Shown in pieces: positions 1 through 61,328 of a DNA stretch of 64,000 nucleotides. Position numbers and translations under genes: made by a program. Source of the DNA: Gemmatimonadaceae bacterium (lineage in GTDB: Bacteria > Gemmatimonadota > Gemmatimonadetes > Gemmatimonadales > Gemmatimonadaceae); contig JAUQWM010000014.1 of the NCBI GenBank assembly GCA_030835125.1, positions 1 through 64,000 on the forward strand, given 5' to 3'. Below the pieces are notes generated by a model that had not been told where the DNA came from, did no database searches, and saw only the letters and a list, made by a program, of their open reading frames with translations. Position 1 is the stretch's first letter; each line of letters starts with the position of its first letter.

Positions 1-1790
1 ATGAGGTCGAGGCGGAGCGTGCCTAACGCCAACCCCGCGCTCTCCAGCTGGTGCACCAGCGACGCGCGGTGCCGCAGCATCTCGTCGAGCGAGGCCCGCT
101 GGCGCCGGAGGAACGCCAGCCGGCGGCCGGCGTCCGGGTCGTCGGCCTCGCGCTCGAGCGCCGCCATCCGGGTATCGAGGTCGGCCGCGAGCCGCGGGTC
201 GATACCCGCCTCCACGCGCTCGATGGTCTTCACCAGGTGCATCACGCGCTCGACGAGGGCCTCCACGGTCGGACCCAGGTCGGGGACCAGCGCGCGGTCT
301 TCCTTCGAGAGCCCGGCGAGGATCTCCCGGATCACGGTCCGGTCGTCGGCGGCGCGCCGGATGGCGGCCCCGTACGGCCCGTCGAGCACCGCGCGCGGCG
401 CGATCTTCTCCAGCTGCTTCTCGCGCGCGCCGGGTGCCACCTTCGCCTTCCGGGCGCCGGGGATCACCCACGTCGCGCGCGGCATGAGGAAGACCCGCCG
501 GAGCCGGAGCCCGCTGTCGCGGAGCGATAGCCCCCGCCGGGCGAGCTTCAGCATCATGTACAGCGGAACGACCGGCGCCAGGATCAGCGGGACCGCCTCT
601 GCCTCCACGGCGAGGGTGACCCCCGCCATCGACGCGACCGCCATGCCTAACGTGTACCAGGCGTAGCGGCGCGCGGCCTTCACGCGGTCGAGGAGGTTCG
701 CCCGCCCATGCCACAGCGCGAGGTCGTCGCGCTGCTCGGGCGTGAGGGACGCCAGGTGCGGCGGCTCCACCACCATCGGTGGCTGCCCGGGGTCGGTGAT
801 GAGCAGGGGGCGCACCATCGGCGTCCCCCGGGACGGGGACGGCGTCCGGCCGTCGCGCGGTCGTACGGCGCGCTCCCGACGCCCGGCCTCCGGACTCGGC
901 GAGGCGTACCGCACCGGTTCCCGCTCGGACCGCCACGACGGACCCGGCATCTCGTCGGACAGCAGCGCTTCGCGCAGGACCGTCGCGCTGGGCCAGCGGT
1001 CGTCGGGCGATTTCGCCAGCGCGCGCTCGATGGTCTCGCGAATGGGGCGCGGCGCCTCGGGCCGCAACTCGCCGATGGGCCGCGGCCGCTCGGTCACGTG
1101 CTTCAGCAGCAGCGCCATGTTGTTCGGCGCGGTGAACGGCACCCGGCCGGTGAGCATCTGGTACGCCACCACGCCGAGGGAGTAGATGTCGCTTCGGCCG
1201 TCGACGTCCCGGTCGCCGGTGGCCTGCTCCGGCGACATGTACGTCGGAGTCCCCACCGCGATGCCGGTCTGCGTGAGCCGGGCACCCGCCTCCATCGCGC
1301 GGGCGATCCCGAAATCCGTCACCAGCGCGCGTCCGCTCTCCCGCTCGAGCAGGATGTTGTCCGGCTTGATGTCCCGGTGGATCACCCCGCGTCCGTGCGC
1401 GTACCCCAGCGCATCCGCCACCTCGGCCAGGATGCGGCGCGCCGTCTCGACCGATGGCCGCGGATCGCGCGCCAGGCAGTCGGCGAGGTTGCCGCCGTTG
1501 ACCAGTCCCATCACCAGCCAGGCGATGCCCTCGCGTTCACCAACGTCGTAGATCGGCACGATGTGCGGGTGCGAAAGCTGCGCCGAGGTGTGCGCTTCCC
1601 GGGCAAAGCGGGTCCGGACCGCGGGGTCGCGGGCGAGCTCCGGGGGCAGGACCTTGATGGCCACGTCCCGGTGGAGGCGCCGGTCGCGGGCGCGGAACAC
1701 GACCGACATCCCGCCCCGCCCCAGCTCGTCCCCGATCTCGTACTGGTGTCCGATGGCGGCCTGCAGCCGCTCGAGCGTCGATTCCGGCAC
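1..1790 (-). CDS. PknB-type Ser/Thr protein kinase, 3' end outside window
   Basis: This is a eukaryotic-like Ser/Thr kinase whose C-terminus lies beyond the left edge; about 596 residues are visible. The glycine loop GRGGMSVVF is at 24-32, the ATP lysine K46 in AIKV, the catalytic HRDIKPDN at 138-145 and DFG from D159. A peptide-substrate segment MSPEQATG follows. The kinase domain ends near residue 280. A hydrophobic hairpin lies at about 375-412 and a charged, helical tail follows, so the kinase is probably membrane-anchored with a cytoplasmic catalytic half. The start is a GTG preceded by GGGAGA at about 7 bases. It lies 44 bases behind the oxidoreductase gene on the same strand and may be co-transcribed. 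Its layout resembles the second kinase at 21.3 kb. The substrate is unknown. Confidence 0.9.
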   Translation of the reverse strand, partial: MPESTLERLQAAIGHQYEIGDELGRGGMSVVFRARDRRLHRDVAIKVLPPELARDPAVRTRFAREAHTSAQLSHPHIVPIYDVGEREGIAWLVMGLVNGGNLADCLARDPRPSVETARRILAEVADALGYAHGRGVIHRDIKPDNILLERESGRALVTDFGIARAMEAGARLTQTGIAVGTPTYMSPEQATGDRDVDGRSDIYSLGVVAYQMLTGRVPFTAPNNMALLLKHVTERPRPIGELRPEAPRPIRETIERALAKSPDDRWPSATVLREALLSDEMPGPSWRSEREPVRYASPSPEAGRRERAVRPRDGRTPSPSRGTPMVRPLLITDPGQPPMVVEPPHLASLTPEQRDDLALWHGRANLLDRVKAARRYAWYTLGMAVASMAGVTLAVEAEAVPLILAPVVPLYMMLKLARRGLSLRDSGLRLRRVFLMPRATWVIPGARKAKVAPGAREKQLEKIAPRAVLDGPYGAAIRRAADDRTVIREILAGLSKEDRALVPDLGPTVEALVERVMHLVKTIERVEAGIDPRLAADLDTRMAALEREADDPDAGRRLAFLRRQRASLDEMLRHRASLVHQLESAGLALGTLRLDL

Positions 1791-1834
1791 GGGCAGTCTC
1801 CCGCGATCGCGACCGGCTCCGGTCGCGTCGCTCG

Positions 1835-3922
1835 TCAGGCGAGGGCGACCTCGACCTGGTTGTCGTAGAAGGTGGCGCCACCGCCCATGTCGGTCTCGCG
1901 CTGGCTGGTGGTCTGGTTGGCGTTGCGGCCGTCCCTCGAGAACTTCGTCCACCAGACCGACGGGGCCCAGACCACGCCGCGCCGGATGCCATCCTCGACC
2001 CGGGCCGTGACCGTGAAGGCGCCGCGCCCGTTGCGGATCTCGACCTCGTCGCCGGTGCGGATGCCGCGCGGGGCGGCATCGTCGGGGTGGATGATGCACT
2101 CCGGCTGGCCGACCCCACGCCGGAGCGAGTCCACGTTGACGAATGACGAGTTCAGGAACTGGTGGGCGGGCGAGGAAATCAGCGTGAGCGGCCACTGCGC
2201 GACGAGCGCCGCGTCACGTTCCGGGCTCTCGTACGGCGGGATGTACGCCGGCAGCGGGTCGAGGCCCATCTGGGCCATCCGCTCGCTGTAAAGCTCGCAC
2301 TTCCCGCTGGGCGTCAGGAACTCGCCGTTGCTGAACGGCGCGTAGGGGCGCGGGAGGTTGAGCCGCACCCAGCCGTGCTCCATCAGCCGCTCGAACGTCA
2401 CCCCGCGCATCTTCGGCTGGTCCGTGTCGAGCGCCTGACGAATGAGGGACAGGTCATCGTCCTCGAACCAGGGCTGGCTGAGTCCCATCGCATGCGCGAG
2501 CCGGCGGAAGATCTCCGTGTTCGGCAGCGCCTGGCCGATGGGGGCGATGGCCGGCCGGTTGAGGGTGGCGTAGTGATGGCCGTAGGCCAGGTGCACGTCC
2601 CAGTGCTCGAGCTGCGTCGTCGCCGGCAGGACGTAGTCGGCCCAGTCGGCCGTGTCGGTCTGGAAGTGCTCCAGCACGACGGTAAAGAGATCCTCGCGCG
2701 CCAGGCCGCGACGCACCGCGTTGAGGTCCGGGGCGACCGCCCCCGGATTGGAGTTGTAGACGACCAGTGCCTTCACCGGGGGCCCGCCCACGCCCGCGTG
2801 AGGCAGGGTGAGCGCGTCGCCAAGCCGGATCATGTTGATCGTGCGCACCGGCGGGCTGGCATCGGCGCGATGGAGCGCCGTGACGTTGTAGCTGAAGTTC
2901 TTGCTGGTCGACAGCTGCACGCCCCCGCCGGCGTGGCGCCAGTGTCCCGTGATCGCGGGGAGGCAGGCGATCGTCCGCACGGCCATGCCGCCGCCGGCGT
3001 GCCGCTGCAGCCCGTAGTTCACGCGGATGAACGCGTTCTTCGCGCGGCCGTAGCGGCGCGCCAGCGCCTCGATCACCCCGGCGGCGATCCCGGTCGTCGC
3101 CGACGCGCGCTCGACGGTCCACTCCGCGGCACGGCTCCGGAGCTGGTCGGCGCCGATCGTGTGGCGCGCGAGAAAGTCGTCGTCCTGCAGGTTCTCGGCA
3201 AACAGGACGTGCATCATCCCCAGGGCGAGGGCGGCGTCGGTTCCCGGACGGATCCCGATCCACTCGTCGCACTGGCGTGCCGTGCGCGTCCGGATGGGAT
3301 CGATGCAGATGACCGGGGCGCCCTTCTCGCGCGCCTGCAGCACGAACGGCCAGAGGTGCGGGTTCGCCGTGAGCGTGTTGGTCCCCCAGAGGAGGATGAG
3401 GTCCGCGTCGCCCACCGACTCCGTGTCCGCCCCGATGTTCGCGCCCACCGTCATGCGCATCCCGGCCGCGCCGGCCGTCGAGCAGATCGTGCGATCGAGC
3501 CTGGACGCGCCCAGCGTATGGAAGAAGCGCCGGTCCATCGACTCGCCCTGCAGGTACCCCATCGTGCCCGCGTAGGAGTAGGGCAGGATCGCCTCGGCTC
3601 CGTGCGTGGAGATCACCTCGGCCAGGCGCTTCGCGATGTCCGCCAACGCCTCATCCCAGCTCACCGGCTCGAACTGCCCGCGTCCCTTCGGCCCCACCCG
3701 CCGGAGCGGGTGCGTCAGCCGGTCATGATGGTAGGTACGCTCGATGTAGCGATTGACCTTGGCGCACAGGAATCCCTGCGTGACCGGGTGATCCGGGTCT
3801 CCCTGGATCCTGACGGCGCGCCCATGCTCCACCGTCGTGATGATCGCGCACGTATCCGGGCAGTCGTGCGGGCAGGCGCCGCGAACGGTGCCGTCCTGGA
3901 TGAGGGGTAGGGTGGTCGCCAT
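1835..3922 (-). CDS. molybdopterin-dependent oxidoreductase (BisC/DMSO reductase family)
   Basis: At 695 residues this is a full-length catalytic subunit of the DMSO-reductase superfamily. The N-terminal 4Fe-4S ligands are C17, C21, C25 and C53 (CPHDCPDTC then FLC). C147, in the segment TICSTAG, is a candidate molybdenum ligand. The C-terminal 130 residues have the usual second MGD-binding fold (ECIIHPDDAA, GDEVEIRNGRG, ending NQTTSQRETDMGGG). There is no Tat signal, so it should act in the cytoplasm. No electron-transfer partner is adjacent, and the substrate cannot be read from sequence; this branch includes many unassigned dehydrogenases or reductases. It is transcribed divergently from the exported protein at 4018. 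Confidence 0.9.
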   Translation of the reverse strand: MATTLPLIQDGTVRGACPHDCPDTCAIITTVEHGRAVRIQGDPDHPVTQGFLCAKVNRYIERTYHHDRLTHPLRRVGPKGRGQFEPVSWDEALADIAKRLAEVISTHGAEAILPYSYAGTMGYLQGESMDRRFFHTLGASRLDRTICSTAGAAGMRMTVGANIGADTESVGDADLILLWGTNTLTANPHLWPFVLQAREKGAPVICIDPIRTRTARQCDEWIGIRPGTDAALALGMMHVLFAENLQDDDFLARHTIGADQLRSRAAEWTVERASATTGIAAGVIEALARRYGRAKNAFIRVNYGLQRHAGGGMAVRTIACLPAITGHWRHAGGGVQLSTSKNFSYNVTALHRADASPPVRTINMIRLGDALTLPHAGVGGPPVKALVVYNSNPGAVAPDLNAVRRGLAREDLFTVVLEHFQTDTADWADYVLPATTQLEHWDVHLAYGHHYATLNRPAIAPIGQALPNTEIFRRLAHAMGLSQPWFEDDDLSLIRQALDTDQPKMRGVTFERLMEHGWVRLNLPRPYAPFSNGEFLTPSGKCELYSERMAQMGLDPLPAYIPPYESPERDAALVAQWPLTLISSPAHQFLNSSFVNVDSLRRGVGQPECIIHPDDAAPRGIRTGDEVEIRNGRGAFTVTARVEDGIRRGVVWAPSVWWTKFSRDGRNANQTTSQRETDMGGGATFYDNQVEVALA

Positions 3923-7253: not shown

Positions 7254-10200
7254 ATGCGTTCTCGTTCGTTAGGCGCCGTCGCCAGGCGGTTCGTCGACGT
7301 GCGCGCGGCCGCCGCGCTGCTCCTGCTCGTCGCCGGGCGCGCGACCGCGCAGCAGTACGAATACCCGGTCGTTCCGCCGGTCCTCTACGTGGTGGGGAAA
7401 CCGGAGTTCGGCACTCCCGCCGACGGCTCGCGCCGGGTCACGCTGTACAAGGACATCGGCCAGGCAACGGCGGCGGCGGGCGGGCAGCCGGTCTACCGGA
7501 TCCTCCGGCACGCGCTCGACCGCACCAGTGAAGGCACGGCGTTTCTCAAGTCGGTCCAGGCCGCGCGCAACGAGGACGGCCCGTTCCAAATCACCCTGAC
7601 GAGCGAACAATCCCTCGTCGAGACGCTGCACCGGAACAGCAAGGTTCCCGGCGACCTGGGTCCGGCCAACCCCAACTGGAAGCTCACCGGGAGATATCAG
7701 GGTCTCCTCAAGGACATGAACGCGGAATACAAGCCGGAGGGAGGCAAGGACGACTACAAGAACGGCCGCTTCTACTTCCCGACGGAGGGTTCCGAGGCCG
7801 CGGTGAACTTCATGCAGAACTTCAAGGTGCATGTCGGGAAGGACGCCGCCGGCAACACCATCCTCATGCGTCGCAATGATGCCGGCACGCTCATGCCGAT
7901 CGATACCCGGGACATCTCGAGCGACGTCCCGGCCGGCCAGTGCATCTTCGTCATGGACGCCGACGGCAACATGTACGTACTCGCCCGGGAGTGGGTCATC
8001 GGCATCAAGGCCATGGGCTTTGACGGGGTCAACCACTCCTCGATCCCCGCCGGCCACCCGATCGCCGCCGCGGGCAAGTTGGCGATCCACGATGGCAAGG
8101 TCGTGGCGATGGACAACTCTTCGGGACACTACCACCCGTCCAACGCCCATCTCAAGCAGGCCGTCAGCCAGCTGCAGACACTGGGGATCGAGAAGGGCTC
8201 GTACGACGTCGGGTTCCTCGCCGACGATCATCCGGGCCACGCCTACCTCGAACTCGACTCCAGGAAGGAGCAGCGGAAGTTCGTCGACGCGCCGCTCGAC
8301 GATGCACGCACCGGCGGCCCGCTGCACGGGGACCCCAACGCCAGGCGCCCCGACGCACCGGCCGACGCCGCGAGCGCCCTCAAGCCCGAGGAGACGATCC
8401 CCGACAAGCAACTCGACGTGGACCGTCGCGCCGCCGAACCCCCGCCCGCGTCAGGCACGATGGAGGCCGACAAGCCGGTCGAGCCGCCGCCCAGGGCGCT
8501 GGTCGAGGACATCCGGAAGCAGCTCGCCGCCCTGAAGCCAGAACAGATCGACGCCGCGGTCGTGAAGAGGCTCTACGCCCTCGACCCGAAGGCCGCCAAG
8601 GCGATCGCCGAGGCGGTCTCGAAGGGAGGCCTTGACGCGCACAACATGAAGATCGGCCAGGTGCGCAAGCAGCTGGACCTCGAGGTCTGGAAGAAGATCT
8701 TGTCCGAACACAACATCCAGGTCGAGACGACCAACCAGGGGAAGAACAACGGCGCTCGCAGCGACCTCGATTACACGCTGTACTTCGTCGCCGAGGAAGC
8801 CGGCGTCACGATCAAGGATCTGATCGCGGAGCACACCGCCACGTGGAAGGCGTTGCACCAGCTCGATCCGGCACAGGTCGAGATCAAGGTGATGAACGGC
8901 GACGAGTTCTACCCGGACTGGCGCAATGAAGCCCTCGGCTCGGTCGAGCACGAACTCCTGGTCAAGGATGTCCTCGGCCAGTTGCGTGGCGACGCGGAGA
9001 AGTACTCGGTCCCCGGCGGCAACAAGGAGCAGGTGCACAACCGCCCGCTGAGCGAAGGCCGGACCGAGAAGCTCCGCTACGATCCCGAACTCGACAAGCC
9101 GGACGTGCCCATCGAACGGCAGGTCATCAGCGACGCGGGCCCCACGCGCGAGATCTCACGGCGGTACCAGGGCGTCCACGCCCAGTACAACACGATGAAC
9201 GCGCTCGGGAACCTCATCCAGAACAAGGCCGAGTTCTTCAGCCACACCGGCGACCAGGCACAGGACGCCACGCGCCGCGCCAAGTACTTCAACCGCGTCA
9301 TCAACCTGGGCCTCGGAAACCTGCGTTTCTTCCCGAACACGTACGGGCAGATCCACGCCGGTCAGGCGGCGAAGAAGGAGCAGATGAAGGAGGACTTCCT
9401 CATGCGCGCCTTTGGCACCCTGGCCAGGGACGAGGGAAGGCCTGCCATCAACAGTTCGCAGCTCCGGCACTACAAGGAAGTCATCGACATCTCCATGCGG
9501 ATCGAGGCGGAGAAGACCGCCAACGCGAACTACATGGACCAGCGCGAGTCGTATTTTCGCGACAAGTACGCGCGCAACGCCGAGGCGTTTGTCGACCTGC
9601 GGCTCGGCAATTCGCCGGTCACGCCCGAGGAACGGAAGGCACTGGTCCTGGACGAGATGCAGCGCCTCTTCGAGCACGACCAGAAGCTCCTGCTGGCGGA
9701 AGCGATCCTGGCCGGCATGCGCCAGAGCGTCGCGCGCGACCTCACCCCCGAAGGCGTGCTGCGCAACCGGCTCCGCTTCGACGAGAAGACGCAGAAGTTC
9801 ATCGCCGACCCGGAAGGCGCGAAGAAGGTTGCGTTCGAGCGCGCCACCGAAGTCGCCCTGTTCTTCGAGCTGGTGAACTTGCTCCCCGACGGGACGCCGT
9901 TCGAAAAGGCGTTCAAGGAGAGCCTCAAGGCGCGCGCGATGGCCACAGCGCCCAACAAGGACATCGAGACCTTCTACGAAGCGCTCGACAAGGTCAACGC
10001 CGCCGAGATCGACAAGTTCATCAAGGGTGATCCGGAGAGCCACGTCCAGAAGTCGATGGACGAGTTGCGAGCCAAGCGTGACCGGGCGGTCCTCGAGTTG
10101 CTCGCCGATCGCAAGGAGAAGGCGGTCGAGTTCGCGCGGCAGAAGGGCGTCCGCGCCGATCCGTCCACGGTGGCACCGGCCGACGTGCATGCCCACATCC

Positions 10201-13200: not shown

Positions 13201-14039
13201 GACTGAGCCCGGGCGGCGGCACGCCGACCGCGCCTGCGATCGGGTTCGCCCACGACTACATGAAGAAGAGCGCGAGGGGCAAGTCGGCCCAGATCGTCCT
13301 CATGACGGACGGACAGAATGACTGCGGGTCGATGGTCGACGCGGGATCCGGCCTGCGCAACAGCAACATCCCGGTCCGGCTCGACGCGGTCGGCTTCGGT
13401 CTCGACCCGAGCAGCCAGGCGACGAAAGACCTCGGTGACATCGTCCGTGCGTCTGGGGGCGGGGGCGGGGCCTATTCGGCGAACAGTTCGGCCGAACTGA
13501 TCTCCGCGTTCCGGCGGGCGTTCATCACGACCCAGGTGAAGCCGCGGGACCCGATGGTGTCGGGTGCCGCGGGCACGCGACTCGCAGACCTGTTCGCGGC
13601 GGCGATCGCGGCGCTGAAGGCCAACGACATGCGTGGCGCGGTCGGGCAGTTCAAGTCGGCGGTCGACCAGTTCCCGGCCTCACCCGCCGCGCAGTTCAAC
13701 GCATCGCTGGCGTACGAGGCGGCCGGGCAGCCCCTGGCGGCGCTGAACCACGCGCAGCAGTACCTGAAGCTCGCGCCTAACGCCTTCGATGCGGGTTCGG
13801 TGCGCGAACGGGTCACGCAACTGGAGGCCGAGCAGGCGGCCAACCCCCGCGCGATCTACACGCCGAACGACTGCAGCGCGCTCTACCGCTGGGCGCAGCG
13901 GGAGGTGCGTGCCGCGGGCGGCGAGGCTGCCCGGCGCGCCGCCGTCTACGCGATCATGACCACGGCGCAACGGGGCGAGTGCCCCGCGGCCGAGAAGGCC
14001 TACGAGGACTACGTGACGAAGTACGTGAAGAAGCCATAG
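7254..14039 (+). CDS. giant secreted vWA-domain protein (2,261 aa)
   Basis: The start is the ATG at 7254, preceded by GGGAGGT at about 7 bases; longer upstream readings run into the M48 gene. A signal peptide is followed by a long mostly helical body of unknown family. Residues 500-511 read GARSDLDYTLYF, reminiscent of the G-S-DxD core of nucleotidyltransferase folds (weak). Residues about 1505-1575 look like a carboxypeptidase-regulatory beta-sandwich. A Pro/Gly/Ala/Lys linker lies at about 1610-1650, followed by coiled coil. A von Willebrand A domain starts near 1912, with MIDAS DTSGS at 1920-1924 and TDG at 2018-2020. TPR-like helices close the protein at about 2098-2190. It is probably periplasmic or cell-surface. 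A metal-dependent adhesion or assembly role is only inference. Confidence 0.85.
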   Translation: MRSRSLGAVARRFVDVRAAAALLLLVAGRATAQQYEYPVVPPVLYVVGKPEFGTPADGSRRVTLYKDIGQATAAAGGQPVYRILRHALDRTSEGTAFLKSVQAARNEDGPFQITLTSEQSLVETLHRNSKVPGDLGPANPNWKLTGRYQGLLKDMNAEYKPEGGKDDYKNGRFYFPTEGSEAAVNFMQNFKVHVGKDAAGNTILMRRNDAGTLMPIDTRDISSDVPAGQCIFVMDADGNMYVLAREWVIGIKAMGFDGVNHSSIPAGHPIAAAGKLAIHDGKVVAMDNSSGHYHPSNAHLKQAVSQLQTLGIEKGSYDVGFLADDHPGHAYLELDSRKEQRKFVDAPLDDARTGGPLHGDPNARRPDAPADAASALKPEETIPDKQLDVDRRAAEPPPASGTMEADKPVEPPPRALVEDIRKQLAALKPEQIDAAVVKRLYALDPKAAKAIAEAVSKGGLDAHNMKIGQVRKQLDLEVWKKILSEHNIQVETTNQGKNNGARSDLDYTLYFVAEEAGVTIKDLIAEHTATWKALHQLDPAQVEIKVMNGDEFYPDWRNEALGSVEHELLVKDVLGQLRGDAEKYSVPGGNKEQVHNRPLSEGRTEKLRYDPELDKPDVPIERQVISDAGPTREISRRYQGVHAQYNTMNALGNLIQNKAEFFSHTGDQAQDATRRAKYFNRVINLGLGNLRFFPNTYGQIHAGQAAKKEQMKEDFLMRAFGTLARDEGRPAINSSQLRHYKEVIDISMRIEAEKTANANYMDQRESYFRDKYARNAEAFVDLRLGNSPVTPEERKALVLDEMQRLFEHDQKLLLAEAILAGMRQSVARDLTPEGVLRNRLRFDEKTQKFIADPEGAKKVAFERATEVALFFELVNLLPDGTPFEKAFKESLKARAMATAPNKDIETFYEALDKVNAAEIDKFIKGDPESHVQKSMDELRAKRDRAVLELLADRKEKAVEFARQKGVRADPSTVAPADVHAHILEAQSERLAPSRRTQIRAVAGALGTRIGGEFREAFTQNGSALMMGSSAVNLARAWQSGAPGALGYAAFTEAINYMPDAIQTPFTVVDLLAKVKRGEYVGAAWSGSLFAAMSQAPVLGHAMLAYNITTGTLDIAHTHFVTRIDQDLTEQALKSRPRNEQGGGLPDGVRARPNRFPDAKESVYNGSGPGFPLFFGRYVKEHGPNTSPEYLDGTVPHDALSDDQLADSASFEFAPQIDSILRAANLTPGTQAWAGRAWDLKRKYGFDIPFYRRMTKVYQEKYRFLTYFENWPSPYNKEYLEECRMDVYDWFVQQPPGYKLELAGDATFWFGDQTDKMQEMIARQCALILGSIHEITEHADEVDKSNLKAFKEAMKRGFDAERSLLAAKRALHARIQADEQKAAAEVEKRALELATRHKTQLVISYPFTYATEEDLSLLDVDVRTLAVTVKQPTSVDLKQELGTATEGAPAGWEPGPSWADAFKPDKDGFVARRPLTVPMKITGNLLDADKKQVATASLTLPVVVYAPTFSGTVTVKVYGMTARGDSTEYPGALVTLGSETQATDALNGVATFVRLKPGPHSVKVAPSKGDERHGPGSGSASLVDLLLTKDPNGTESARIVVKLPYIPEKVVADSTANPGTKNPTGGTGTGAKNPADSAAKKAAADSAAEAAVEAAVAKLGPLTARAEATRDQAIAACRYGDAAAAQEQLVAAARSFIASAFPKGAPAGIASMAQEYDTKLVELKKFALGETEARVHLRRGLAFIQQKKGEPALTALEEAEKVDNVPKCLHDQIVQTYNELKADIEKRILIIDKAVDAANNKCDYPAARAFGEQVEKEDASLSWVVNELPRIKDLEKKQQDARALAQQAEQKAALAEQAAGAGNAAQAEALFNEAIALANQALQLAPACDKQNYSDGVTALVARKTALTNPTVDQSVVLLLDTSGSMGSGGKMESAKQAATDAVRALGPTVEVALLTYDGGCAGGYRVVAGFTTQKAGIVTAIAGLSPGGGTPTAPAIGFAHDYMKKSARGKSAQIVLMTDGQNDCGSMVDAGSGLRNSNIPVRLDAVGFGLDPSSQATKDLGDIVRASGGGGGAYSANSSAELISAFRRAFITTQVKPRDPMVSGAAGTRLADLFAAAIAALKANDMRGAVGQFKSAVDQFPASPAAQFNASLAYEAAGQPLAALNHAQQYLKLAPNAFDAGSVRERVTQLEAEQAANPRAIYTPNDCSALYRWAQREVRAAGGEAARRAAVYAIMTTAQRGECPAAEKAYEDYVTKYVKKP

Positions 14040-28889: not shown

Positions 28890-28891
28890 GC
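28884..28891. repeat. octamer CGTTAGGC carrying the stop codons of two convergent genes
   Basis: The octamer supplies TAG (28887-28889) to the plus-strand aldolase and TAA (28888-28886) to the minus-strand small protein. The two genes thus end within the same 4 bases. Confidence 0.9.
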
Positions 28892-39878: not shown

Positions 39879-39885
39879 GTTGACC

Positions 39886-42170: not shown

Positions 42171-42809
42171 ATGCATCACCGGCTGGCAGCCGTGCCGCAC
42201 GTCGGGCTGGTGGCGGCCGCGCTGTGCTCCCTGTGGTCGGCATCCGTGTCGGCACAGGCGCCACGGCAGACGGACGCCGACCACTACACGCGCTACGAGC
42301 TGCTCGCGCCCGGCAGCGCGAAGTTCCGCATCATCTACGAAGTCACCGCGACGACCGCCGGAGCCACACGGTACTTCAACCCGATCCGTCGCGGGAGCAT
42401 CGCGACGGATGAAGCCGTGTTCGACCGGATGACGGGCGAACCCCTCCGCTTCGAGGTCGTGCGCGGCGACATCGCCCGCGCCGGTGGCGTGCGTGGCGCC
42501 GATTCCACCAGCGAGTACATCATGGTCCACCTGGCCCGGCCGGTCCCGTCAGGAGGAGAGGCGCGCATCCGGATCGACAAGACGTACGAGGACCAGCGGT
42601 CGTACCTGGCCGGCGGCGACACGCTCGTCTTCACCCGACCGTTAGGCATCAAGCGGAACGCGGTCGTCCTGCCGGTGGGGTATGAGCTGACGGGGGTGAA
42701 CTACCCGTCGCAGGTGCGGCAGGAGGCCGACGGCCGGCTGGCCGTGAGCTTCATCAACATCGGGAGCGCCGAAGTGCCGTATGTCGTCAAGGCGCGGAGG
42801 GTGCGGTGA
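42171..42809 (+). CDS. exported protein, first of a tandem paralogue pair
   Basis: The 212-residue protein has a signal peptide (GLVAAALCSLWSASVSAQ) and a beta-rich body. The segment YFNPIRRGSIATDEAVFDRMTG and the closing LPVGYELTGVNYPSQV and VKARR align with the next gene. GGAGGT stands 5 bases before the ATG. I do not recognise the family; the fold may be a beta-sandwich. Its TTA-GGC pair is in an exact octamer at 42640. Confidence 0.75.
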   Translation: MHHRLAAVPHVGLVAAALCSLWSASVSAQAPRQTDADHYTRYELLAPGSAKFRIIYEVTATTAGATRYFNPIRRGSIATDEAVFDRMTGEPLRFEVVRGDIARAGGVRGADSTSEYIMVHLARPVPSGGEARIRIDKTYEDQRSYLAGGDTLVFTRPLGIKRNAVVLPVGYELTGVNYPSQVRQEADGRLAVSFINIGSAEVPYVVKARRVR

Positions 42810-45515: not shown

Positions 45516-46291
45516 GCACGCCTGTCGGCGGGGACCCCGTGATCGAGTGCACGGATGTCAGCAAGCAGTTCTTCATCTACCAGCACCGCACGAACACGCT
45601 GCAGGAACTCGTGCGGCGCATCGTGCTGCGGCAGCCCATTCACGTGCGGCGACCGCTCTTCCAGCTCGAGGGCTTCAACCTCACCGTGCAGCGCGGCGAG
45701 TCGCTGGCCCTGGTGGGCCCGAACGGCTCGGGCAAGAGCACTGCGCTGCGCCTGATCGCGGGCGTGTACGCGCCGACCACCGGCACCGTGACGACGCGCG
45801 GGCGGATCGTCGCCGTCATCGAGCTCGGCGCGACCTTCCAGCCGGAGTTGACGGGGGACGAGAACCTCTGGCTGTACGCGACCGCCCTCGGCCTCTCGCC
45901 GGCCGACATCCGGCGACGCTCGGAGGAGATGTACGCGTTCGCGGGCGTCCAGGAGTTCTCCGACGTGCCGCTCAAGTACTACTCGTCAGGCATGCGGGTG
46001 CGCCTCGCTGCCAGCGTCGCGCTCCACGCTGACCCCGACATCCTCCTGCTGGACGAGGTCCTGGCGGTCGGCGACGCCGAGTTCGCGCGCCAGTGCCTGC
46101 GACGACTGGAGTCGTTCCAGGCGGGCGGCGGCACGATGGTCGTCGTCTCGCACAACCTGGATTCGCTGAAGGACCTCTGCGCGCGGGCCGTGTGGATGGA
46201 CCATGGCCGCGTCCGCATGTCGGGCTCCTCGGCGGAGGTCACCGAGGCGTACGCCGAGGCGATCGGGGCGGCCGACACCGTCCATGCCTGA
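45512..46291 (+). CDS. polysaccharide export ABC ATPase (Wzt/TagH-like)
   Basis: The 259-residue ATPase has Walker A GPNGSGKST, ELTGDENLWLY, a signature YSSGMRVRL (SGM variant typical of Wzt/TagH), Walker B ILLLDEVLAVGD and VSHNLDSL. The N-terminal FFIYQHRTNTLQELV is typical of this class. There is no C-terminal carbohydrate-binding domain, so the exported glycan should not need a terminal modification for recognition. It overlaps the next gene by 8 bases. Confidence 0.93.
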   Translation: MSTPVGGDPVIECTDVSKQFFIYQHRTNTLQELVRRIVLRQPIHVRRPLFQLEGFNLTVQRGESLALVGPNGSGKSTALRLIAGVYAPTTGTVTTRGRIVAVIELGATFQPELTGDENLWLYATALGLSPADIRRRSEEMYAFAGVQEFSDVPLKYYSSGMRVRLAASVALHADPDILLLDEVLAVGDAEFARQCLRRLESFQAGGGTMVVVSHNLDSLKDLCARAVWMDHGRVRMSGSSAEVTEAYAEAIGAADTVHA

Positions 46292-47882: not shown

Positions 47883-50530
47883 ACGATCTTCGCCGGCCTG
47901 CTCCCGGCGTTCTTGACGTAGATGTCCAGCCACGCGGTCCAGCGACCCCAGAGGTCCAGCAGCGTCTCGGCCGTGGCCGGACCGTGATCCTCATACGGGT
48001 ACATGTACAGCGCGGAGTTCTTTCCCTGGGCGCGCAGCGCCTGCATCATGCGGATCGAGCTGATCGGAGCCGTGCCGACGTTCTGGTCCTCCATGCCGTG
48101 GTACATCAGCAGGGCGCCCTGCATCTGGTCCGCGTACAGCATGGGTGACATCTCCAGGTAGGTGCCCTGGCCGTCCCACAGGTCGCGCCGCTCACTCTGG
48201 AACCCGACGGGCGTGAGCGTTCGGTTGTACATGCCATCGCCGGCAATGCCGGCCTTGAAGAAGGGCGTGTGCACGAGCGCGTTCGCGGTGGTGAAGGCAC
48301 CGTAGCTGTGCCCGCCAATGCCCAGTCGCGAGCGATCGATCCACCCTTGCCGATCCAGTTCGTCGATGACCGAATAGAGGTTCATCCGCAGGTCGGCGAC
48401 ATAGTTGTCGTTCATCCTCCCGGATTCCCCGATGATCGGTGGGTCGAAGTTCGCGACCACGTACCCCTGAGTCGCGAGGTACTCGATCGTGCGCGTCCCA
48501 CCCTGCGGGAACCGGTTGACGTTTTCTGTCCGCAACGTGCGGTCGTATTCCGCCTGACTCGTATACTCGTACGGATAGAGCCAGAACATCCCGGGCAGGC
48601 GCGTCCCTTCCCGGTAATCAGCGGGTAAGGTCACCCTCACGACGAACGAGATGCCATCGGGCCGCGTCACCGTGACACGCTTGCGGATCGCGCGCGTGTA
48701 TTCCGGGGTCAAGTCGGTGTTGCTGGTCAGCCTGGTGCTCGTGCCCGACCTGAAATCGCGGAGCCAGGAGTTCCCCACCTCGGTGCTCGATTCCCGCACC
48801 ACGATCGCCTTCGAGAAGTCGTCGTCGAGCGGTGCCGTGACGCTTTCCCAGGCATCGACCGGCCCCTCGAAGAGGCGGGACTTCGTGCCGGTTCGGATGT
48901 CGACCCGGTCCACGAACTCACGGGGCGCGTGCTGGAGGTAGTCGCGAAAGTATTGCGTGCCCCGCAGGAAGACGGTGCTGTCGCTGGACAGCATCACGAC
49001 CTGGCCACCGGATGATCCCCGCCGGGTCATCAGCGTGCCCGGGTTGTTGTAGAACGCCAGCGTGTCGTCGCCGGCGGCACCGCCCCGTCCGCCGCGGCCG
49101 CCGGCACCCAGCGCGGGCGTGTAGCCGCGCTGACGGATGACCGTGTAGCGCTTCGTTGGTTCGTCCAGCCGGACACCGAAGATCTCGCCCTGGCCATTCG
49201 ACGTCGCCGCGGCGAAGACCATCTTCGCGTCATCGGTGAACAGGACCCCGCTCATCGGCCCCGTGTGCCGGTAGAGCGTCGCGGTATCGGCGGTGCCGAA
49301 GGGAGCCGACCAGCGGATGAGCCGGTCGGGCCGGTTGGCGTTGCCGCCCCCGGCGCCGCCTCGACCGCCGGCTCCCGCCGCGCGACCACCGGCCGGCGTG
49401 GCATTGCCGGAATCGCCACGAGCGGAAGCCTCGGACGCGAGGTAGTACATGCCGGGACCCGTCGGCATCCACGCCAGTCCACGCCGCGAACCTTCGCCCC
49501 CGGCCCGGCCACCGGCCGCGCTATCCGGGGCCTCACGGAGGGGGCGCTTCTCGATCGTCGCCAGGACCTTGCCGGAGGCGTCCCACACCTCGCTGTTCGA
49601 TCCGAACGACGAGTACTGCACGATGTAGGAGAACGGCTTCTGCATCGTAGTCACCCGGAAGTACTGCCCGTCGGGGGAAGCGTCCACGGCGCTGATCATG
49701 GCCGGCGTGCCAACCTTGCGCACCGCCCTCGTCTTCACGTCGATCACGGCCAGCTGCCCGGTGACGAACCACTCCATCAGGGCCATGTCGAATGGCTCCT
49801 CGAGCAGGCTGGCGAAGTTCCGCTGTGGCGACGGCTTGCTCTCGGTCCACACACGGACCTGCGGCCCGGTGGCCACTGGCGGCTTGACCGGCTGGGGCGC
49901 GCGTTGCTCCGGCAGGAGGACGGCCACGATGCTCCTTCCATCCGCCGTCCAGTCGACGCTGGTCACCAGCGTGGCGAGCAACGGCGTCTTCGTGACCTGG
50001 ATCGACTTGCGGGTGGCGACGTCGGCGACGAAGACATGCGACGCGGTCTCGAAGTTCGCCACGTAGGCGAGTTGCCTGCCGTCGGGCGACCAGGACGATC
50101 CACTGACCGTTGCACCGCGTGGCGTTTCGATCGTCGTGGAGGCGCCGGTCGTCGCATCGATCAGCGACAGTCCCGCCGCGCCGCGCGTCGTCAGGCTGCG
50201 CGCGCGATTCGCCGCGGGATCGACCTGCAGTCCGCCGAAATACAGGTGCGGCTTCCCGAACGCGGTGACGGATGGCAGTCCCTCGGACTGCTCCTTCAGG
50301 AAATGGCGCCGGTCCGGACTGGGCTGGGTCAGCGAGACATTGAGGTGCCGCGGCGCGGTCACGAGCCTGGCGATGACGTCCGGTGGGCGGACCCAGGTTT
50401 CCCTGGCCAGGGTCTCGCGGGCCGCCTCGATGGATGCCGAGGCATTGGCTCCCTGTGCGTCGACCCGAGTGGCCGGCGCCAGGAACGCGACGGTGAGCGT
50501 GGCAAGAGCGATTCGTGAAGTCGGCCGCAT
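47876..50530 (-). CDS. S9-family serine peptidase (prolyl oligopeptidase class)
   Basis: The 884-residue protein is read from an ATG with GAGGGA upstream. A signal peptide (IALATLTVAFLAPATRVDAQ) precedes an N-terminal beta-propeller and a C-terminal alpha/beta hydrolase. The catalytic triad is S742 in GGHSYGAF, D815 in GMEDQNV and H849 in YEDHGPA. The propeller has two Gly/Arg-rich low-complexity inserts (AGAGGRGGAGGG and GAGGRGGRGG). It should degrade periplasmic oligopeptides. It converges with the glycosyltransferase, the two coding ends overlapping by 7 bases. Confidence 0.93.
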   Translation of the reverse strand: MRPTSRIALATLTVAFLAPATRVDAQGANASASIEAARETLARETWVRPPDVIARLVTAPRHLNVSLTQPSPDRRHFLKEQSEGLPSVTAFGKPHLYFGGLQVDPAANRARSLTTRGAAGLSLIDATTGASTTIETPRGATVSGSSWSPDGRQLAYVANFETASHVFVADVATRKSIQVTKTPLLATLVTSVDWTADGRSIVAVLLPEQRAPQPVKPPVATGPQVRVWTESKPSPQRNFASLLEEPFDMALMEWFVTGQLAVIDVKTRAVRKVGTPAMISAVDASPDGQYFRVTTMQKPFSYIVQYSSFGSNSEVWDASGKVLATIEKRPLREAPDSAAGGRAGGEGSRRGLAWMPTGPGMYYLASEASARGDSGNATPAGGRAAGAGGRGGAGGGNANRPDRLIRWSAPFGTADTATLYRHTGPMSGVLFTDDAKMVFAAATSNGQGEIFGVRLDEPTKRYTVIRQRGYTPALGAGGRGGRGGAAGDDTLAFYNNPGTLMTRRGSSGGQVVMLSSDSTVFLRGTQYFRDYLQHAPREFVDRVDIRTGTKSRLFEGPVDAWESVTAPLDDDFSKAIVVRESSTEVGNSWLRDFRSGTSTRLTSNTDLTPEYTRAIRKRVTVTRPDGISFVVRVTLPADYREGTRLPGMFWLYPYEYTSQAEYDRTLRTENVNRFPQGGTRTIEYLATQGYVVANFDPPIIGESGRMNDNYVADLRMNLYSVIDELDRQGWIDRSRLGIGGHSYGAFTTANALVHTPFFKAGIAGDGMYNRTLTPVGFQSERRDLWDGQGTYLEMSPMLYADQMQGALLMYHGMEDQNVGTAPISSIRMMQALRAQGKNSALYMYPYEDHGPATAETLLDLWGRWTAWLDIYVKNAGSRPAKIVQ

Positions 50531-51550: not shown

Positions 51551-51602
51551 CTCTCGCAGGCCCGCGGCAGGCCGGCCGGGGCCTCGCGTCGTGCCGGACC
51601 CG

Positions 51603-52868
51603 TTAGGCGCCGCCCGGCGCCTGGCGACTCGAGGCCAGCATCGTGACGACCATCAGCGCCCATTGCGGGCCCAGCCAGCCGCGGTCTCCGTCATCATAGG
51701 ATTCGGTCACCGAGTGGGCACCGCGCCCCTCGCCGCCACCATCCAGGGTGATGGCCTCGACCCCGAGGCTCATCGGCCAGTTGGCGTCGGTGCTGGACGC
51801 GGAGCCGGGCGCCTCGAATCCGAGCGCGCGCGCCGCCGCCTGGGCGGTGCGGACGATGCGGCTCGTGTCCGGCGGCGCGGCCGCCGGCCGCACGCCCGTC
51901 GACTGCACGTCCACGGTCACCTTGACGCGCGACTGCGGCCACCGCGCGTTCTCGTCGGCAAGCGCCTCGTCCACCGCCTTCCGGAACGCCGCGTCGAGCG
52001 TGGCCAGCGCGTCGGGAGACTCCGACCGCAGGTCCACGTCCATCGCGCCAAGCGGCGAGATCGTGTTGACCGAGGTCCCGCCCTCGACGATCCCCACGTT
52101 GAAGGTCGTCTTCGGCGTCCGTGGCACCTGGATGGCCGAGATCTTCGCGATCGCCCGCCCGAGCGCGTGGATCGGGCTGGGCATGCCGAATGCCCCGTAA
52201 CTGTGGCCGCCGGGTCCCTTGAACGACACCTTGTACCGGTTGCTGCCGACGGCACGGCTCGTGAGTCCGAGCCCGGTCCCGTCGACCGAGATGAAGTAGT
52301 CGATCTTCGCCGGCGGCTTCGCGAAGAGGTGCTTCACGCCGCGGAGATCGCCAGGCCCCTCCTCACCAACGTTGGCGACGAAGTAGATCGCGCCCGCGGT
52401 GGTCACGTTCTCGGCCCCCATCGCCTTCGCCACGGCCAGGAGCACAGCGAGGCCACGGCAGTCGTCGCCGATCCCCGGGCCCTTCAGCAGGGTGCCCTGT
52501 CGCTGCACCCTGACATCCGTCTCCTCGGGAAAGACCGTGTCGAGGTGCGCGGCCAGGATGACCACCGGTCCATTTGACGTTCCGGGGCGCTCGGCAATCA
52601 CGTTCCCGATCGAGTCGATGCGCACGTTCCGGAGGCCGAGCGCCTCGAAGCGCCGCTTCATCTCGGCGGCGCGCCGCTCCTCCTTGAATGGCGGCGCCGG
52701 GATCTCGCAGATCGAGACCTGCTGTTCGATGGTCCACGCGTTGTCGGCGCGAATGCGGTCGAGGGCCGCGCGAACGGGCGTCGTCGCCGCAACATCCTGC
52801 GACTGCGTAACGCACGGGGACACGAGGGCGACGGCCAGCGCCGCGCGGAGGATGCGACGGAAAGTCAT
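51603..52868 (-). CDS. M20-family zinc peptidase, exported
   Basis: The 421-residue protein has a signal peptide (LRAALAVALVSPCVTQS) and an M20/PepT-like fold. The metal and catalytic motifs are LAAHLDTVFP, GIGDDCRGLA, NVGEEGPGDLRG and VDGTGLG. The dimerisation insert follows with GGHSYGAFG, and a last ligand is in GRGAHSVTES. It removes terminal residues from small peptides. It is coupled to the asparaginase upstream by ATGA. Its TAA stop is inside an exact octamer at 51601-51608. Confidence 0.92.
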   Translation of the reverse strand: MTFRRILRAALAVALVSPCVTQSQDVAATTPVRAALDRIRADNAWTIEQQVSICEIPAPPFKEERRAAEMKRRFEALGLRNVRIDSIGNVIAERPGTSNGPVVILAAHLDTVFPEETDVRVQRQGTLLKGPGIGDDCRGLAVLLAVAKAMGAENVTTAGAIYFVANVGEEGPGDLRGVKHLFAKPPAKIDYFISVDGTGLGLTSRAVGSNRYKVSFKGPGGHSYGAFGMPSPIHALGRAIAKISAIQVPRTPKTTFNVGIVEGGTSVNTISPLGAMDVDLRSESPDALATLDAAFRKAVDEALADENARWPQSRVKVTVDVQSTGVRPAAAPPDTSRIVRTAQAAARALGFEAPGSASSTDANWPMSLGVEAITLDGGGEGRGAHSVTESYDDGDRGWLGPQWALMVVTMLASSRQAPGGA

Positions 52869-53941: not shown

Positions 53942-54819
53942 GCGACCACCGTCGCCGGCGCGGCAGTTCCCGACGCGGCGGCCAGCCGTCGGGCGAGTGC
54001 CTCGTACAACCGCATGGTGATCGCGCCGGGCTTGCCGGTGCCGACCGGGGCGCCGTCGATCGCAACCACCGGCATGACGTCGCTGGTCGTCCCGCTGAGG
54101 AAGCACTCCTCCAGCTGCGCGATCTCGTGCCGGTAGATCGGCGTCTCCGAGACAGGGATGCCCATCTCCCGCGCCAGCTCGACGACCACGTCGCGGGTCA
54201 CGCCGGGCAGCACGTAATTGCTGTTTGGGTAGGTCCGCACCTCGCCGCCGATCACCCCGAAGACGTTCGTGTGCGAACCCTCCGTGACCACCGCGTCCCG
54301 CAGGAAGACGGCCTCGAACGCGCCATGGTCCGTCGCGAACTGCTTGGCCATGACGGCGGGAAGCAGGTTCACGGTCTTGAGGTCACAGCGGGTCCAGCGG
54401 TAGTCCGGGTACGTCACGACGGCGACGCCTCGCGCCCGCAGCTCGTTAGGTGGCACGAACGGCGTCGCCGACAGGAAGACCGTCGCGGGAGTGCCGGCCG
54501 GCGGGAAATGATGGGTGCGCGGTGCCGCCCCGCGCGTGACCTGCAGGTAGACGGTGCCCTGCCCCTCGGTCATCCGGTTCTCGGCGACGACCCGCTCGTG
54601 CAGGGCGCCGATCCCGTCGAGGGAAAGGCCGGCGTCGATGCGCAACTCGCGCAGCCCGCGGGCCAGGCGGCGCGCATGCCGGTCCCACTCGAACAGCCGC
54701 CCCCGGACGACGCGCGTCACCTCGTAGACGCCGTCCCCGAAGAAGAACCCTCGCTCGTCGACCGAGAGCTTCGCCTCGGCGCGAGGGAGGAACTGGCCAT
54801 TGAGGTAGACGATTGACAC
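53938..54819 (-). CDS. D-amino-acid transaminase (class IV aminotransferase)
   Basis: The 293-residue PLP enzyme of fold type IV has VDERGFFFGDGVYEVTRV near the start and the Schiff-base lysine K148 in RCDLKTVNLLP. Further blocks are EAVFLRDAVVTEGSHTNVF, YVLPGVTRDVVVELA and ECFLSGTTSDVMPV, all typical of Dat/DAAT rather than branched-chain enzymes. It interconverts D-amino acids and keto-acids in the cytoplasm. The GTG start lacks a clear ribosome site; a heptad repeat lies just upstream. It heads the asparaginase/M20 operon. Confidence 0.93.
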   Translation of the reverse strand: MSIVYLNGQFLPRAEAKLSVDERGFFFGDGVYEVTRVVRGRLFEWDRHARRLARGLRELRIDAGLSLDGIGALHERVVAENRMTEGQGTVYLQVTRGAAPRTHHFPPAGTPATVFLSATPFVPPNELRARGVAVVTYPDYRWTRCDLKTVNLLPAVMAKQFATDHGAFEAVFLRDAVVTEGSHTNVFGVIGGEVRTYPNSNYVLPGVTRDVVVELAREMGIPVSETPIYRHEIAQLEECFLSGTTSDVMPVVAIDGAPVGTGKPGAITMRLYEALARRLAAASGTAAPATVVA

Positions 54820-57832: not shown

Positions 57833-58371
57833 GCGCTCCATGCTCCCGCGAAGTCCGCGAGGACCTCGCGCAACCGGGCACGTGCCCGGAACAACTGTGC
57901 CTTCGAGGTGCCCGACTGGATGCCGAGCACCTGGCCGATCTCCTCGTGGGTGTACCCCTCGAGGTCGTGCATCAGGAAGACCGCCCGGTACCCGGGCGGA
58001 AGGCCCTCGATCGCGCGCTGCAGCCGCTCCTTCAGGTCCGGGTCAGCGATGCGCTTCCGGTCGCCTAACGACTCGGCGGCGTCGATGGCCACTTCACGCG
58101 TGCGGAGGCGGCGGACCGTGCGGATCCCGTTCAGCGCGACGGACATGGCAATGGTGTGGAGCCAGGTCCCGAACGACGCTTCACGGCGGAAGGTCGGCAG
58201 CCGGTCGAACGCGCGAATGAAGGCCTCCTGGGTGAAGTCCCTCGCCAGGTCGTCATCCCCCGCCAGGCGGTAGGCCAGGCGGTAGACACGGTCCACGTGG
58301 GCGTCATACAACGCGCGCTGGGCGGCTGGATCACCCTCGATGGCGCGCGCGATGAGCTGGGATTCGGACAC
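57829..58371 (-). CDS. ECF-family RNA polymerase sigma factor
   Basis: The 180-residue protein has sigma-2 (RVYRLAYRLAGDDDLARDFTQEAFIRAFDRL and FRREASFGTWLHTIAMSVALN) and sigma-4 (LPPGYRAVFLMHDLEGYTHEEIGQVLGIQSGTSKAQLFRARARLREVL). The start is a GTG. It heads an operon with a membrane partner and two exported HEAT proteins. The signal is presumably envelope-related. Its TTA-GGC pair is in an exact octamer at 58063-58070. Confidence 0.95.
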   Translation of the reverse strand: MSESQLIARAIEGDPAAQRALYDAHVDRVYRLAYRLAGDDDLARDFTQEAFIRAFDRLPTFRREASFGTWLHTIAMSVALNGIRTVRRLRTREVAIDAAESLGDRKRIADPDLKERLQRAIEGLPPGYRAVFLMHDLEGYTHEEIGQVLGIQSGTSKAQLFRARARLREVLADFAGAWSA

Positions 58372-60189: not shown

Positions 60190-60197
60190 GAGAAAGC

Positions 60198-61328
60198 ATG
60201 CTCCATTCCTCCCCACCCCAGTTCATCGACCAGCTCGAGACCCCCATTCCCCTGGTGGACCTCGACCGGCTGGCGCACAACCTCGATCGCATGGCGGCCT
60301 ATTGCGCCGTGCATGGTCTCGCGCTGCGACCGCACGTCAAGACGCACAAGTCCCCGCGCATCGCCGCAGAGCAGCTGCGCCTCGGCGCCAGGGGACTGAC
60401 GTGCGCGACCCCGCGCGAACTCGAGGTCATGGCCGGCGTGTGCCCGGACCTCCTGCTCGCACACCCGCCGGTTGGTGCCGCGAAGGTCCGCCGCGTCCTG
60501 GGACTCGATCCCTCGGCCCGGCTCACCGTCGCGCTCGATTCCCTCGAAGCCCTGGAACCGCTCGCCGAGGCCGCCGACGCCGCCTCGCGCCCGGTGGATG
60601 TGTACGTCGAGGTCGACGTCGGCATGCGCCGGGTCGGCGTGTCCACCCCGGCCGATGCACTCGCCATCGCGCGACGCGTGCGGGCATTGCCCCCGCTGGC
60701 CTGGCGCGGGATCGCCTTCTACCCTGGCCATGTGCGCCAGCACCTGTCCCGCCAGGACGAGGCGCTTGCCACGCTGCGCGCGGACCTGTCCGCGCACCTC
60801 GCGCTGCTCGGCGACGCCGGCCTGGTTCCCGACGTCGTGAGTGGCGGGTCCACCCCCGCCGCCTGGCGCATGCACGAGGTCACCGGCGTGACCGAGGTGC
60901 GGCCTGGCACCTACGTCTACAACGATCGCGCCACCGTGGAGCTCGGCGCCTGCGGCTGGGAAGACTGTGCCCTGACCGTGCTGGCGACGGTGATCAGCAC
61001 CGCCGTGCCGGGGCAGGCCGTCATCGATGCCGGGAGCAAGGCGTTAGGCAGGGAGCCGCTTCCCGGCGGCGCGGACGCTGGCTATGGGTGCGTGCTCGAC
61101 CGCCTCGACGTGCCCGTCGTCCGCATGTCCGAGGAGCACGGCATCCTCGACCTCCGCGCCACGGATTGGCGCCCCCGCGTCGGCGACGTCGTCCGGATCG
61201 TCCCGAACCACGCCTGCATCGTCGTCCACCTGAACGACGTCATGCAGGGCGTTCGCGGCGAGGTCGTGGAGGCCACCTGGCCAGTCACCGCGCGCGGGCG
61301 AACCATGCCGCAATGGGCGACGCCATAG
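60198..61328 (+). CDS. D-threonine aldolase / DSD1-like PLP enzyme
   Basis: The 376-residue protein has an alanine-racemase-type N-terminal barrel with the PLP lysine K48 in RPHVKTHK and VYVEVDVGMRRVG. The C-terminal domain has VIDAGSKALG, SEEHGILDL and PNHACIVVHLND, which supply the divalent-metal ligands of the D-threonine aldolase/D-serine dehydratase family. It should cleave D-3-hydroxyamino acids to glycine and an aldehyde, or dehydrate D-serine. The TTA-GGC pair is in an exact octamer at 61042. The DASS gene upstream may feed the same metabolism (inference). Confidence 0.92.
   Translation: MLHSSPPQFIDQLETPIPLVDLDRLAHNLDRMAAYCAVHGLALRPHVKTHKSPRIAAEQLRLGARGLTCATPRELEVMAGVCPDLLLAHPPVGAAKVRRVLGLDPSARLTVALDSLEALEPLAEAADAASRPVDVYVEVDVGMRRVGVSTPADALAIARRVRALPPLAWRGIAFYPGHVRQHLSRQDEALATLRADLSAHLALLGDAGLVPDVVSGGSTPAAWRMHEVTGVTEVRPGTYVYNDRATVELGACGWEDCALTVLATVISTAVPGQAVIDAGSKALGREPLPGGADAGYGCVLDRLDVPVVRMSEEHGILDLRATDWRPRVGDVVRIVPNHACIVVHLNDVMQGVRGEVVEATWPVTARGRTMPQWATP

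Follow-up and report, generated by a model that had tools for sequence, protein, structure and literature searches.

The stretch of DNA analysed here (the window) comprises 64,000 nucleotides, positions 1 to 64,000 of contig JAUQWM010000014.1 of a Gemmatimonadaceae bacterium. It carries a series of open reading frames (ORFs), among them those of a protein kinase, an M28 peptidase and a pyrroloquinoline quinone (PQQ) dehydrogenase, through which a single octamer, GCCTAACG, recurs. The word is non-palindromic (its complement is CGTTAGGC) and is present in 16 exact copies on both strands, spanning 21..61049; these are the same 16, in both orientations, that an earlier reading of the letters (the original prediction) had counted. 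Markov models of order 2-3 give an expectation of ~0.5 copies, so that the over-representation then claimed stands while the expected figure of two or three copies does not; among the 8-mers of the window GCCTAACG is over-represented most strongly in these models, with z ~22. In the ORFs chosen, eight copies read NCG-TTA-GGC and six nnG-CCT-AAC-G, in agreement with the TTA-GGC and CCT-AAC frames first assigned to the coding copies, and the remaining two provide stop codons. Of three stop codons proposed earlier (28887, 43469, 51603), the one at 43469 belongs to a one-mismatch copy. Five such one-mismatch copies had been counted; the recount gives 49 (65 matches in total less the 16 exact ones; in shuffles the total averages 43), and one of these variants, GCCTGACG, is enriched in its own right across the genome. 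Nor is there a single TTA outside the motif (48626-48628), as had been thought: 13 TTA codons were found in a first set of ORFs, some of them doubtful, with 7 in CGTTAGGC, 2 more in TTAGGC and 4 elsewhere.

The genome from which the window comes (G000, 4.48 Mb) contains 858 copies of the word, divided 455/403 between the strands; the word read backwards, a control unmatched for codon use, occurs 208 times. As a codon-aware null, synonymous codons were shuffled across the called genes of each genome sample (20 shuffles), which is conservative because the use of TTA is preserved. The sample of G000 (427 kb, window included) has 72 coding copies compared to 3.3 under the shuffle, and the same comparison gave 61 against 1.6 in genome G021, 44 against 1.45 in G020 and 33 against 0.85 in G052. 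Values of 57 against 0.85 and 13 against 0.35 were obtained for G016, taken as Gemmatirosa kalamazoonensis, and G031, respectively; the gene calls of both look partly wrong, with too many Val-Arg pairs, and weight is therefore put on the other four. The original prediction had named two outcomes that would speak against selection, counts near a codon-aware null and equal enrichment of unrelated octamers containing TTA or TAA. Neither was seen in the 427 kb of G000, where the coding copies far exceed the null and the unrelated octamers reach only 0.32 of expectation. Chance or codon usage as the cause is ruled out by the z value of the window together with the codon shuffle.

Across genomes the word is either on or off. 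Within family f1, taken as Gemmatimonadaceae, 26 of 118 genomes hold 223-4469 copies (word-rich) and the other 92 at most 68 (word-poor). The word-rich genomes are spread over 11 of 35 genera, and a single genus, g21, is mixed: its members G021 and G046 have 3754 and 3 copies, the sharpest contrast for tracing the gene of a putative protein that reads the word. In a sample of 395 genomes from the phylum, at least 168 copies were found in 26, all of them Gemmatimonadales (17 from f1, 8 from a second family, f2, and 1 from a third, f3), and each of 167 genomes outside the order has at most 67; the core of the word spans at least two families. In a tree of rpoB proteins built by a quick method from 27 genomes (3 of the 30 searched gave no match), word-rich and word-poor genomes interleave. 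G021 groups with G046, G032 and G034, G016 and G031 group with G015, and G020 groups with G014; one clade is wholly word-rich (G000, G001, G011, G026, G029, G052 and G053). Both an old word lost many times and repeated gain fit this tree, and loss seems the simpler. A search for an alternative word in samples of 8-60 kb each from word-poor G005, G009, G015, G019, G022, G030, G032 and G046 revealed nothing comparable. Some words are enriched in G009, G015 and G030; in stretches L155-L157 of G015, the word-poor sister of Gemmatirosa, these are GCTCCGGAT and GATGCGGAT, which could be another repeat or a different word. None of 77 loci of named relatives, found by a PQQ protein search, has the word at word-rich density, and ten Gemmatimonadetes loci from the PQQ search contain 2 octamers in 170 kb.

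The use of codons in word-rich genomes is conditional on the peptide encoded. TTA codons lie inside NCG-TTA-GGC in 51 of 87 cases in G000, 34 of 99 in G021 and 15 of 50 in G020. Tripeptides of the form [SPTA]LG are spelled in this way 51 times out of 358 in G000, 34 out of 96 in G021, 15 out of 80 in G020 and 22 out of 88 in G052; word-poor G015 and G019 never use this spelling (0/23 and 0/52). Of 17 sample sets from word-rich genomes, 16 rank GCCTAACG first among 8-mers, and in the remaining one (G137) it is second to the overlapping TGCCTAAC. Four near-universal [SPTA]LG sites of rpoB hold the word in 5/14, 4/14, 5/13 and 6/13 word-rich rows, and in 0/13 word-poor rows each, where G153 (45 copies per Mb) was placed among the word-poor; rpoB is without any copy in 3 of 14 word-rich rows (G001, G149 and G160). 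Conserved flanks, as expected of a repeat family, were not found around the strict form, apart from a pyrimidine preference at -1, and this candidate was rejected.

In the genus of G000 the site is longer than the octamer and degenerate, YGCMTRACGAG. The variants GCCTGACG (202 against 40.4 expected) and GCATAACG (29 against 2.5) are enriched in its 427 kb, and the most enriched 11-mer, GCCTGACGAGT, is found in 35 separate 1-kb places against 0.42. The base at +1 is A after 19 of 88 perfect cores, about background, compared to 163 of 243 occurrences of GCCTGACG, GCATAACG or ACCTAACG, often as AG (Fisher 2e-13). Imperfect cores are enriched chiefly before A(G), and perfect cores whatever follows. 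The requirement for the flank is graded, since GCCTGACG retains a ~2.5-fold enrichment before C or T. These figures point to a site of ~8-11 bases whose strength would be additive, with a threshold. The original prediction had overlooked this longer degenerate site and a likeness of the word to the end-box of integron attC sites (see below). In samples of G016 and G021 there is no excess of GCATAACG or ACCTAACG and that of GCCTGACG is weak (17 against 9.4 and 11 against 6.5); in G021 and G067 the excess is instead for changes at positions 2, 4 and 8. The 26 word-rich genomes of the family include 17 with more than 100 copies of GCCTGACGAG, a number reached by none of its 90 word-poor genomes searched (highest 30). 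The clade variants look like dialects of one core. Other repeated sequences are also enriched in stretches of G000, namely the dispersed 11-mers GAGTCACGAGT/TCACGAGTCAC and TGCTGATTGCT; arrays of the heptamer AGGCATC and its reverse complement recur there (L082 16346-16437, L084 10436-10495 and 12784-12850), facing each other in two places.

Copies of the word avoid one another. Pairs were counted in G000 with the short stretches L097 and L098 left out and the window split in three: strict-strict pairs number 0 against 5.7 expected within 300 bp and 7 against 18.3 within 1 kb, and strict-variant pairs 7 against 19.0 within 300 bp and 43 against 61.9 within 1 kb, with no significant deficit of the latter at 2 kb. 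This mutual avoidance of strict and variant forms suggests that they do the same job. The other word-rich samples, pooled, have 58 pairs against 89.7 within 300 bp, and the deficit persists under a null which places sites only at permissive peptides, with 8 close pairs observed where 21.5 are expected (p<=0.0005, four genomes pooled). As a control, 60 of the 461 8-mers that are about as abundant in G000 were taken; their median 1-kb ratio is 0.99, and one goes down to 0.40. The deficit of close pairs is unlike the outcome of local mutational bias alone and fits an advantage that reaches saturation within each DNA fragment. Spacing is evener than random in G000 (coefficient of variation 0.69 against 0.90, p 0.004) and G052 (p 0.02), and no evener than random in G016, in G021 with G067, or in G020.

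Taken together, the codon-shuffle null, the peptide-conditional codon use, the on/off pattern across the clade and the local repulsion support strong, clade-limited selection for the word itself, as the original prediction had proposed. The exact copies in the window are listed in Table 1 with the sites of the extended form.

Table 1. Copies of the word and sites of its extended form in the 64-kb window
Feature	Position	Strand	Reading and context
exact GCCTAACG	21..28	+	GTG-CCT-AAC-GCC, ORF 1-666
exact GCCTAACG	645..652	+	ATG-CCT-AAC-GTG, ORF 1-666
exact word	7267..7274	-	TCG-TTA-GGC, ORF 7107-14039
exact word	13775..13782	+	GCG-CCT-AAC, ORF 7107-14039
exact word	22229..22236	-	ACG-TTA-GGC, protein-kinase ORF 21319-23001
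exact word	24292..24299	+	GCG-TTA-GGC, ORF 24160-24984 (-)
exact word	25308..25315	+	TCG-TTA-GGC, ORF 24981-25988 (-)
exact word	27135..27142	+	GTG-CCT-AAC, ORF 26821-27858
exact word	28315..28322	-	CCG-TTA-GGC, ORF 28056-28889
exact word	28884..28891	-	stop TAG of ORF 28056-28889
exact word	33687..33694	+	GCG-CCT-AAC, M28 peptidase ORF 33340-34377
exact word	40905..40912	+	CCG-CCT-AAC, PQQ dehydrogenase ORF 39838-41850
exact word	42640..42647	-	CCG-TTA-GGC, ORF 41847-42809
exact word	51601..51608	-	stop TAA of ORF 51603-53276 (-)
exact word	58063..58070	+	TCG-TTA-GGC, ORF 57829-58371 (-)
exact word	61042..61049	-	GCG-TTA-GGC, ORF 60198-61328
extended-form site GCCTGACGA(G)	1832..1840	-	class enriched genome-wide
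extended-form site GCCTGACGA	2433..2441	+	
extended-form site GCCTGACGA	15533..15541	+	
extended-form site GCCTGACGA(G)	18371..18379	-	
extended-form site GCCTGACGA(G)	18839..18847	-	
extended-form site GCCTGACGA	19331..19339	+	
extended-form site GCCTGACGA	22016..22024	-	
extended-form site ACCTAACGA	30663..30671	+	
extended-form site GCCTGACGA(G)	37715..37723	-	
extended-form site GCCTGACGA	41342..41350	-	
extended-form site GCCTGACGA(G)	45983..45991	-	
extended-form site GCCTGACGA	50188..50196	-	
extended-form site ACCTAACGA	54443..54451	-	
extended-form site GCCTGACGA	63693..63701	-	

In G000 the orientation of the word follows the genes: in the sampled stretches 57 copies run against the gene and 14 with it. 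The same preference is seen more weakly in G021 (37/24), G020 (24/19) and G052 (23/10). The one-sided stretch L081 (6/0), where nearly all genes are on the minus strand, is explained by this. The strand division does not differ significantly between stretches in the samples of G000 (p 0.34) or over 11 stretches of the G016 chromosome (63/64 in total, p 0.10), and differs slightly in the samples of contigs C3 and C4 of G016 (p 0.04). Stretches L149 and L150 of C4, where gene calls are unreliable, are divided 15/3 and 12/3, and contig C7 of G000 25/11. Terminator hairpins were ruled out as the origin of the copies, which have only scattered neighbours at <80 bp.

Chi and KOPS (FtsK-orienting polar sequences) are over-represented octamers, as is the present word, and are defined also by a strong orientation bias with replication. 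A Chi-like site for recombination or nuclease protection, read by a helicase-nuclease of the RecBCD/AddAB type, would be suited by a dense short word at one per ~1-5 kb, and the one-sided stretches of C4 and C7 lean the same way. Nevertheless, such a role appears very unlikely: the strands are balanced overall in G000 and on the G016 chromosome, and it is the gene strand that the word follows in G000. Furthermore, among 43 genomes searched for the nuclease domain PDDEXK_1 (G001 and G067 were left out as incomplete), a strong match, defined as E below 1e-10, was found in 2 of 19 word-rich genomes (G028 and G160) compared to 9 of 24 word-poor ones (Fisher 0.08). Chi is disfavoured since 17 of the 19 word-rich genomes lack a strong match to a nuclease of this type; six further word-rich genomes gave weak partial matches. 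A strong PDDEXK_1 pair is present in G046 and missing from G021, its word-rich partner in g21. The view of the original prediction that copies in both orientations argue against a strictly polar role of the Chi or KOPS kind is consistent with the overall strand balance and with the dependence on gene strand in G000.

Secondary and mobile replicons carry the word as well. Its density in G016 is 650/Mb in samples of the megareplicons and 577/Mb in those of the chromosome. Contig G016:C1 (L135, 20,952 bases) is probably a circle of 14,997 bp written with overlapping ends, and has 12 copies, or ~800/Mb. The genes of this circle include a tyrosine integrase, an excisionase-like helix-turn-helix protein and a DUF5906 primase, as in a satellite-like mobile element, and 3 kb of it match a region of the 1.1-Mb replicon with ~80% identity. 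Searches for viral contigs with two of its proteins returned none for one and one weak relative for the other. If the word were bound by a nucleoid or chromosome-organising protein needing regular spacing, this would account for the evenness seen in G000 and G052 and for the pooled repulsion within 1 kb. Such binding is a distinctly unlikely explanation, however, given that the megareplicons and the mobile circle are at least as dense in the word as the chromosome, that close relatives are without it and that three of the sample sets are no evener than random. For known uptake words, Karlin et al. reported even spacing and no chromosomal orientation bias, although in their view the words are not placed evenly enough for compaction (PMC1939737).

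The word works like a DNA uptake sequence, and by analogy GCCTAACG, with its longer form YGCMTRACGAG, is probably an uptake-type signal with dialects, read by a putative protein. Among the roles listed in the original prediction this is the one that fits best; a role linked to methylation remains as a rival. The reader would be a protein of natural transformation, most simply a surface receptor resembling a type IV pilin, that recognises ~8-11 bp with additive affinity and a threshold. Homologous DNA bearing at least one site per fragment would then enter and recombine more often, so that new sites would become enriched and be retained wherever the amino acids allow; word-poor lineages would have lost the receptor or altered its specificity. 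The likeness is to the DNA uptake sequences (DUS) of Neisseriaceae and the uptake signal sequences (USS) of Pasteurellaceae, which are likewise short, non-palindromic and present in hundreds to thousands of copies on both strands. As with the present word, these lie inside genes, where reading frames favour one orientation (PMC2346458); their dialects differ between clades and combine a core that is required with flanks of graded effect, and some relatives have no such word (PMC3630211); core and flank also interact (PMC7811141). The differences are that both word and phylum are other ones here, that the core is found in at least two families, that inverted pairs are few and that the word is as dense on secondary replicons and a mobile circle as in the host. 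Membership in the DUS/USS kind is not claimed.

The main rival is a mark like HIP1 (highly iterated palindrome 1) of cyanobacteria, in which a solitary methyltransferase would modify the word and strand-directed repair would favour one site per ~1 kb. HIP1 and the alternate HIPs are dense, at about one per kb, and are absent from some relatives (PMC4390886), as is the word here; moreover A6 is retained in every one-base variant enriched at least threefold in G000 and G021. The rival remains because the published mismatch-repair model of HIP1 also saturates near 1 kb (PMC4390886). HIPs are, however, palindromes tied to methyltransferases, and GCCTAACG is not a palindrome; the compensation between core bases and a flanking A/G is more in keeping with a binding affinity that has a threshold than with the fixed site of an enzyme. 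On balance a HIP1-like mark is considered unlikely.

Several results weigh against an uptake role, among them the saturation that it shares with the HIP1 model. The close-pair deficit is not significant alone in G020, G067, G052, G053, G031, G011, G149 or the megareplicons of G016; it is carried by G000, the G016 chromosome and the pool, and in G021 it is seen only within 100 bp. Under the peptide-constrained null there is no deficit in G052, and in G000 there is one only within 1 kb (p 0.02). Variant sites alone do not repel one another, and the anticorrelation between strict and variant density per stretch is not significant (rho -0.23, p 0.32). The G016 megareplicons have 21 copies of GCCTGACG against 5.3, although GCCTGACGAG is scarce in G016 (38). 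Inverted pairs at gene ends, which are common though not defining among known uptake words and serve these as terminators, were not seen here beyond the scattered close neighbours mentioned above. Mobile or secondary replicons have the word at host density or above, unlike the islands of Neisseria, which are often poor in their own uptake word (PMC7371117). Finally, none of the machinery searched for separates word-rich from word-poor genomes: ComEC was found in 41 of 45 genomes, the pilin N-methyl motif in 28 of 28 and the GspH family in 31 of 45 (with no match in G000), each in both classes. The machinery for competence thus exists in these genomes, as an uptake role would require, but no gene so far tracks the word. 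In word-poor G030 (C37, 417 aa) and G005 (C12, 354 aa) the ComEC match falls in short open frames, possibly broken or fragmented.

The core of an integron attC end-box is GTTRRRY, a general rule that GTTAGGC fits. Pairs resembling attC were found in 6 of 30 loci of the integron integrase gene intI, and five of the six have GCCTAAC/GTTAGGC boxes, sharing seven letters with the word; L249 and L254 have the full octamer at both attC ends, and L250, L253 and L255 have it at one. Copies on one strand at intervals of 0.3-2 kb, resembling cassette arrays, occur in word-poor genomes on contigs G118:C43, G156:C5, G180:C14 and G151:C2. The octamer numbers 17 in 66 kb (257 per Mb) at the 18 intI loci from hosts counted as word-poor, G123 included, and 16 in 42 kb at the 12 loci from word-rich hosts. 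The 1.1-Mb replicon of Gemmatirosa bears one of the two largest integrons that the authors of IntegronFinder found on plasmids (PMC9024848). Dispersed copies could from this be taken for traces or targets of integrons, either attC ends or secondary sites of the integrase. Such an origin is extremely improbable and was set aside: an integrase above the cut-off is present in 29 of 48 genomes, word-rich and word-poor alike, and the dispersed copies are mostly single, without the paired inverse box and hairpin of attC, and sit in phase with the codons of conserved genes, rpoB among them.

The likeness between the word and the attC box may be due to chance or to a coupling of uptake with the capture of cassettes. 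In the latter case the uptake receptor would read the attC box that ends a cassette, free cassettes would carry their own entry signal and mobile circles such as the satellite-like 15-kb element would exploit it. Only a small chance is given to this coupling, and it was reduced slightly because just two of the six attC candidates have the full octamer at both ends. If it were true, the specificity of uptake and the capture of cassettes would form one coupled system in an order rich in integrons.

Words for the uptake of self DNA are not known to be established outside Neisseriaceae and Pasteurellaceae. No uptake word or competence for Gemmatimonadota was described among the papers examined, and those literature matches to the letters of the octamer that were examined look unrelated, judged by title and the start of the abstract. 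An uptake role for GCCTAACG would add an independent example from a different phylum. Sister genera with and without the word would allow the origin, spread and loss of such signals to be asked about, and the receptor may be findable by comparison. The proposed role also raises a link between uptake and integrons that can be tested, and predicts that tagged DNA may serve to transform a group in which genetic engineering is difficult.

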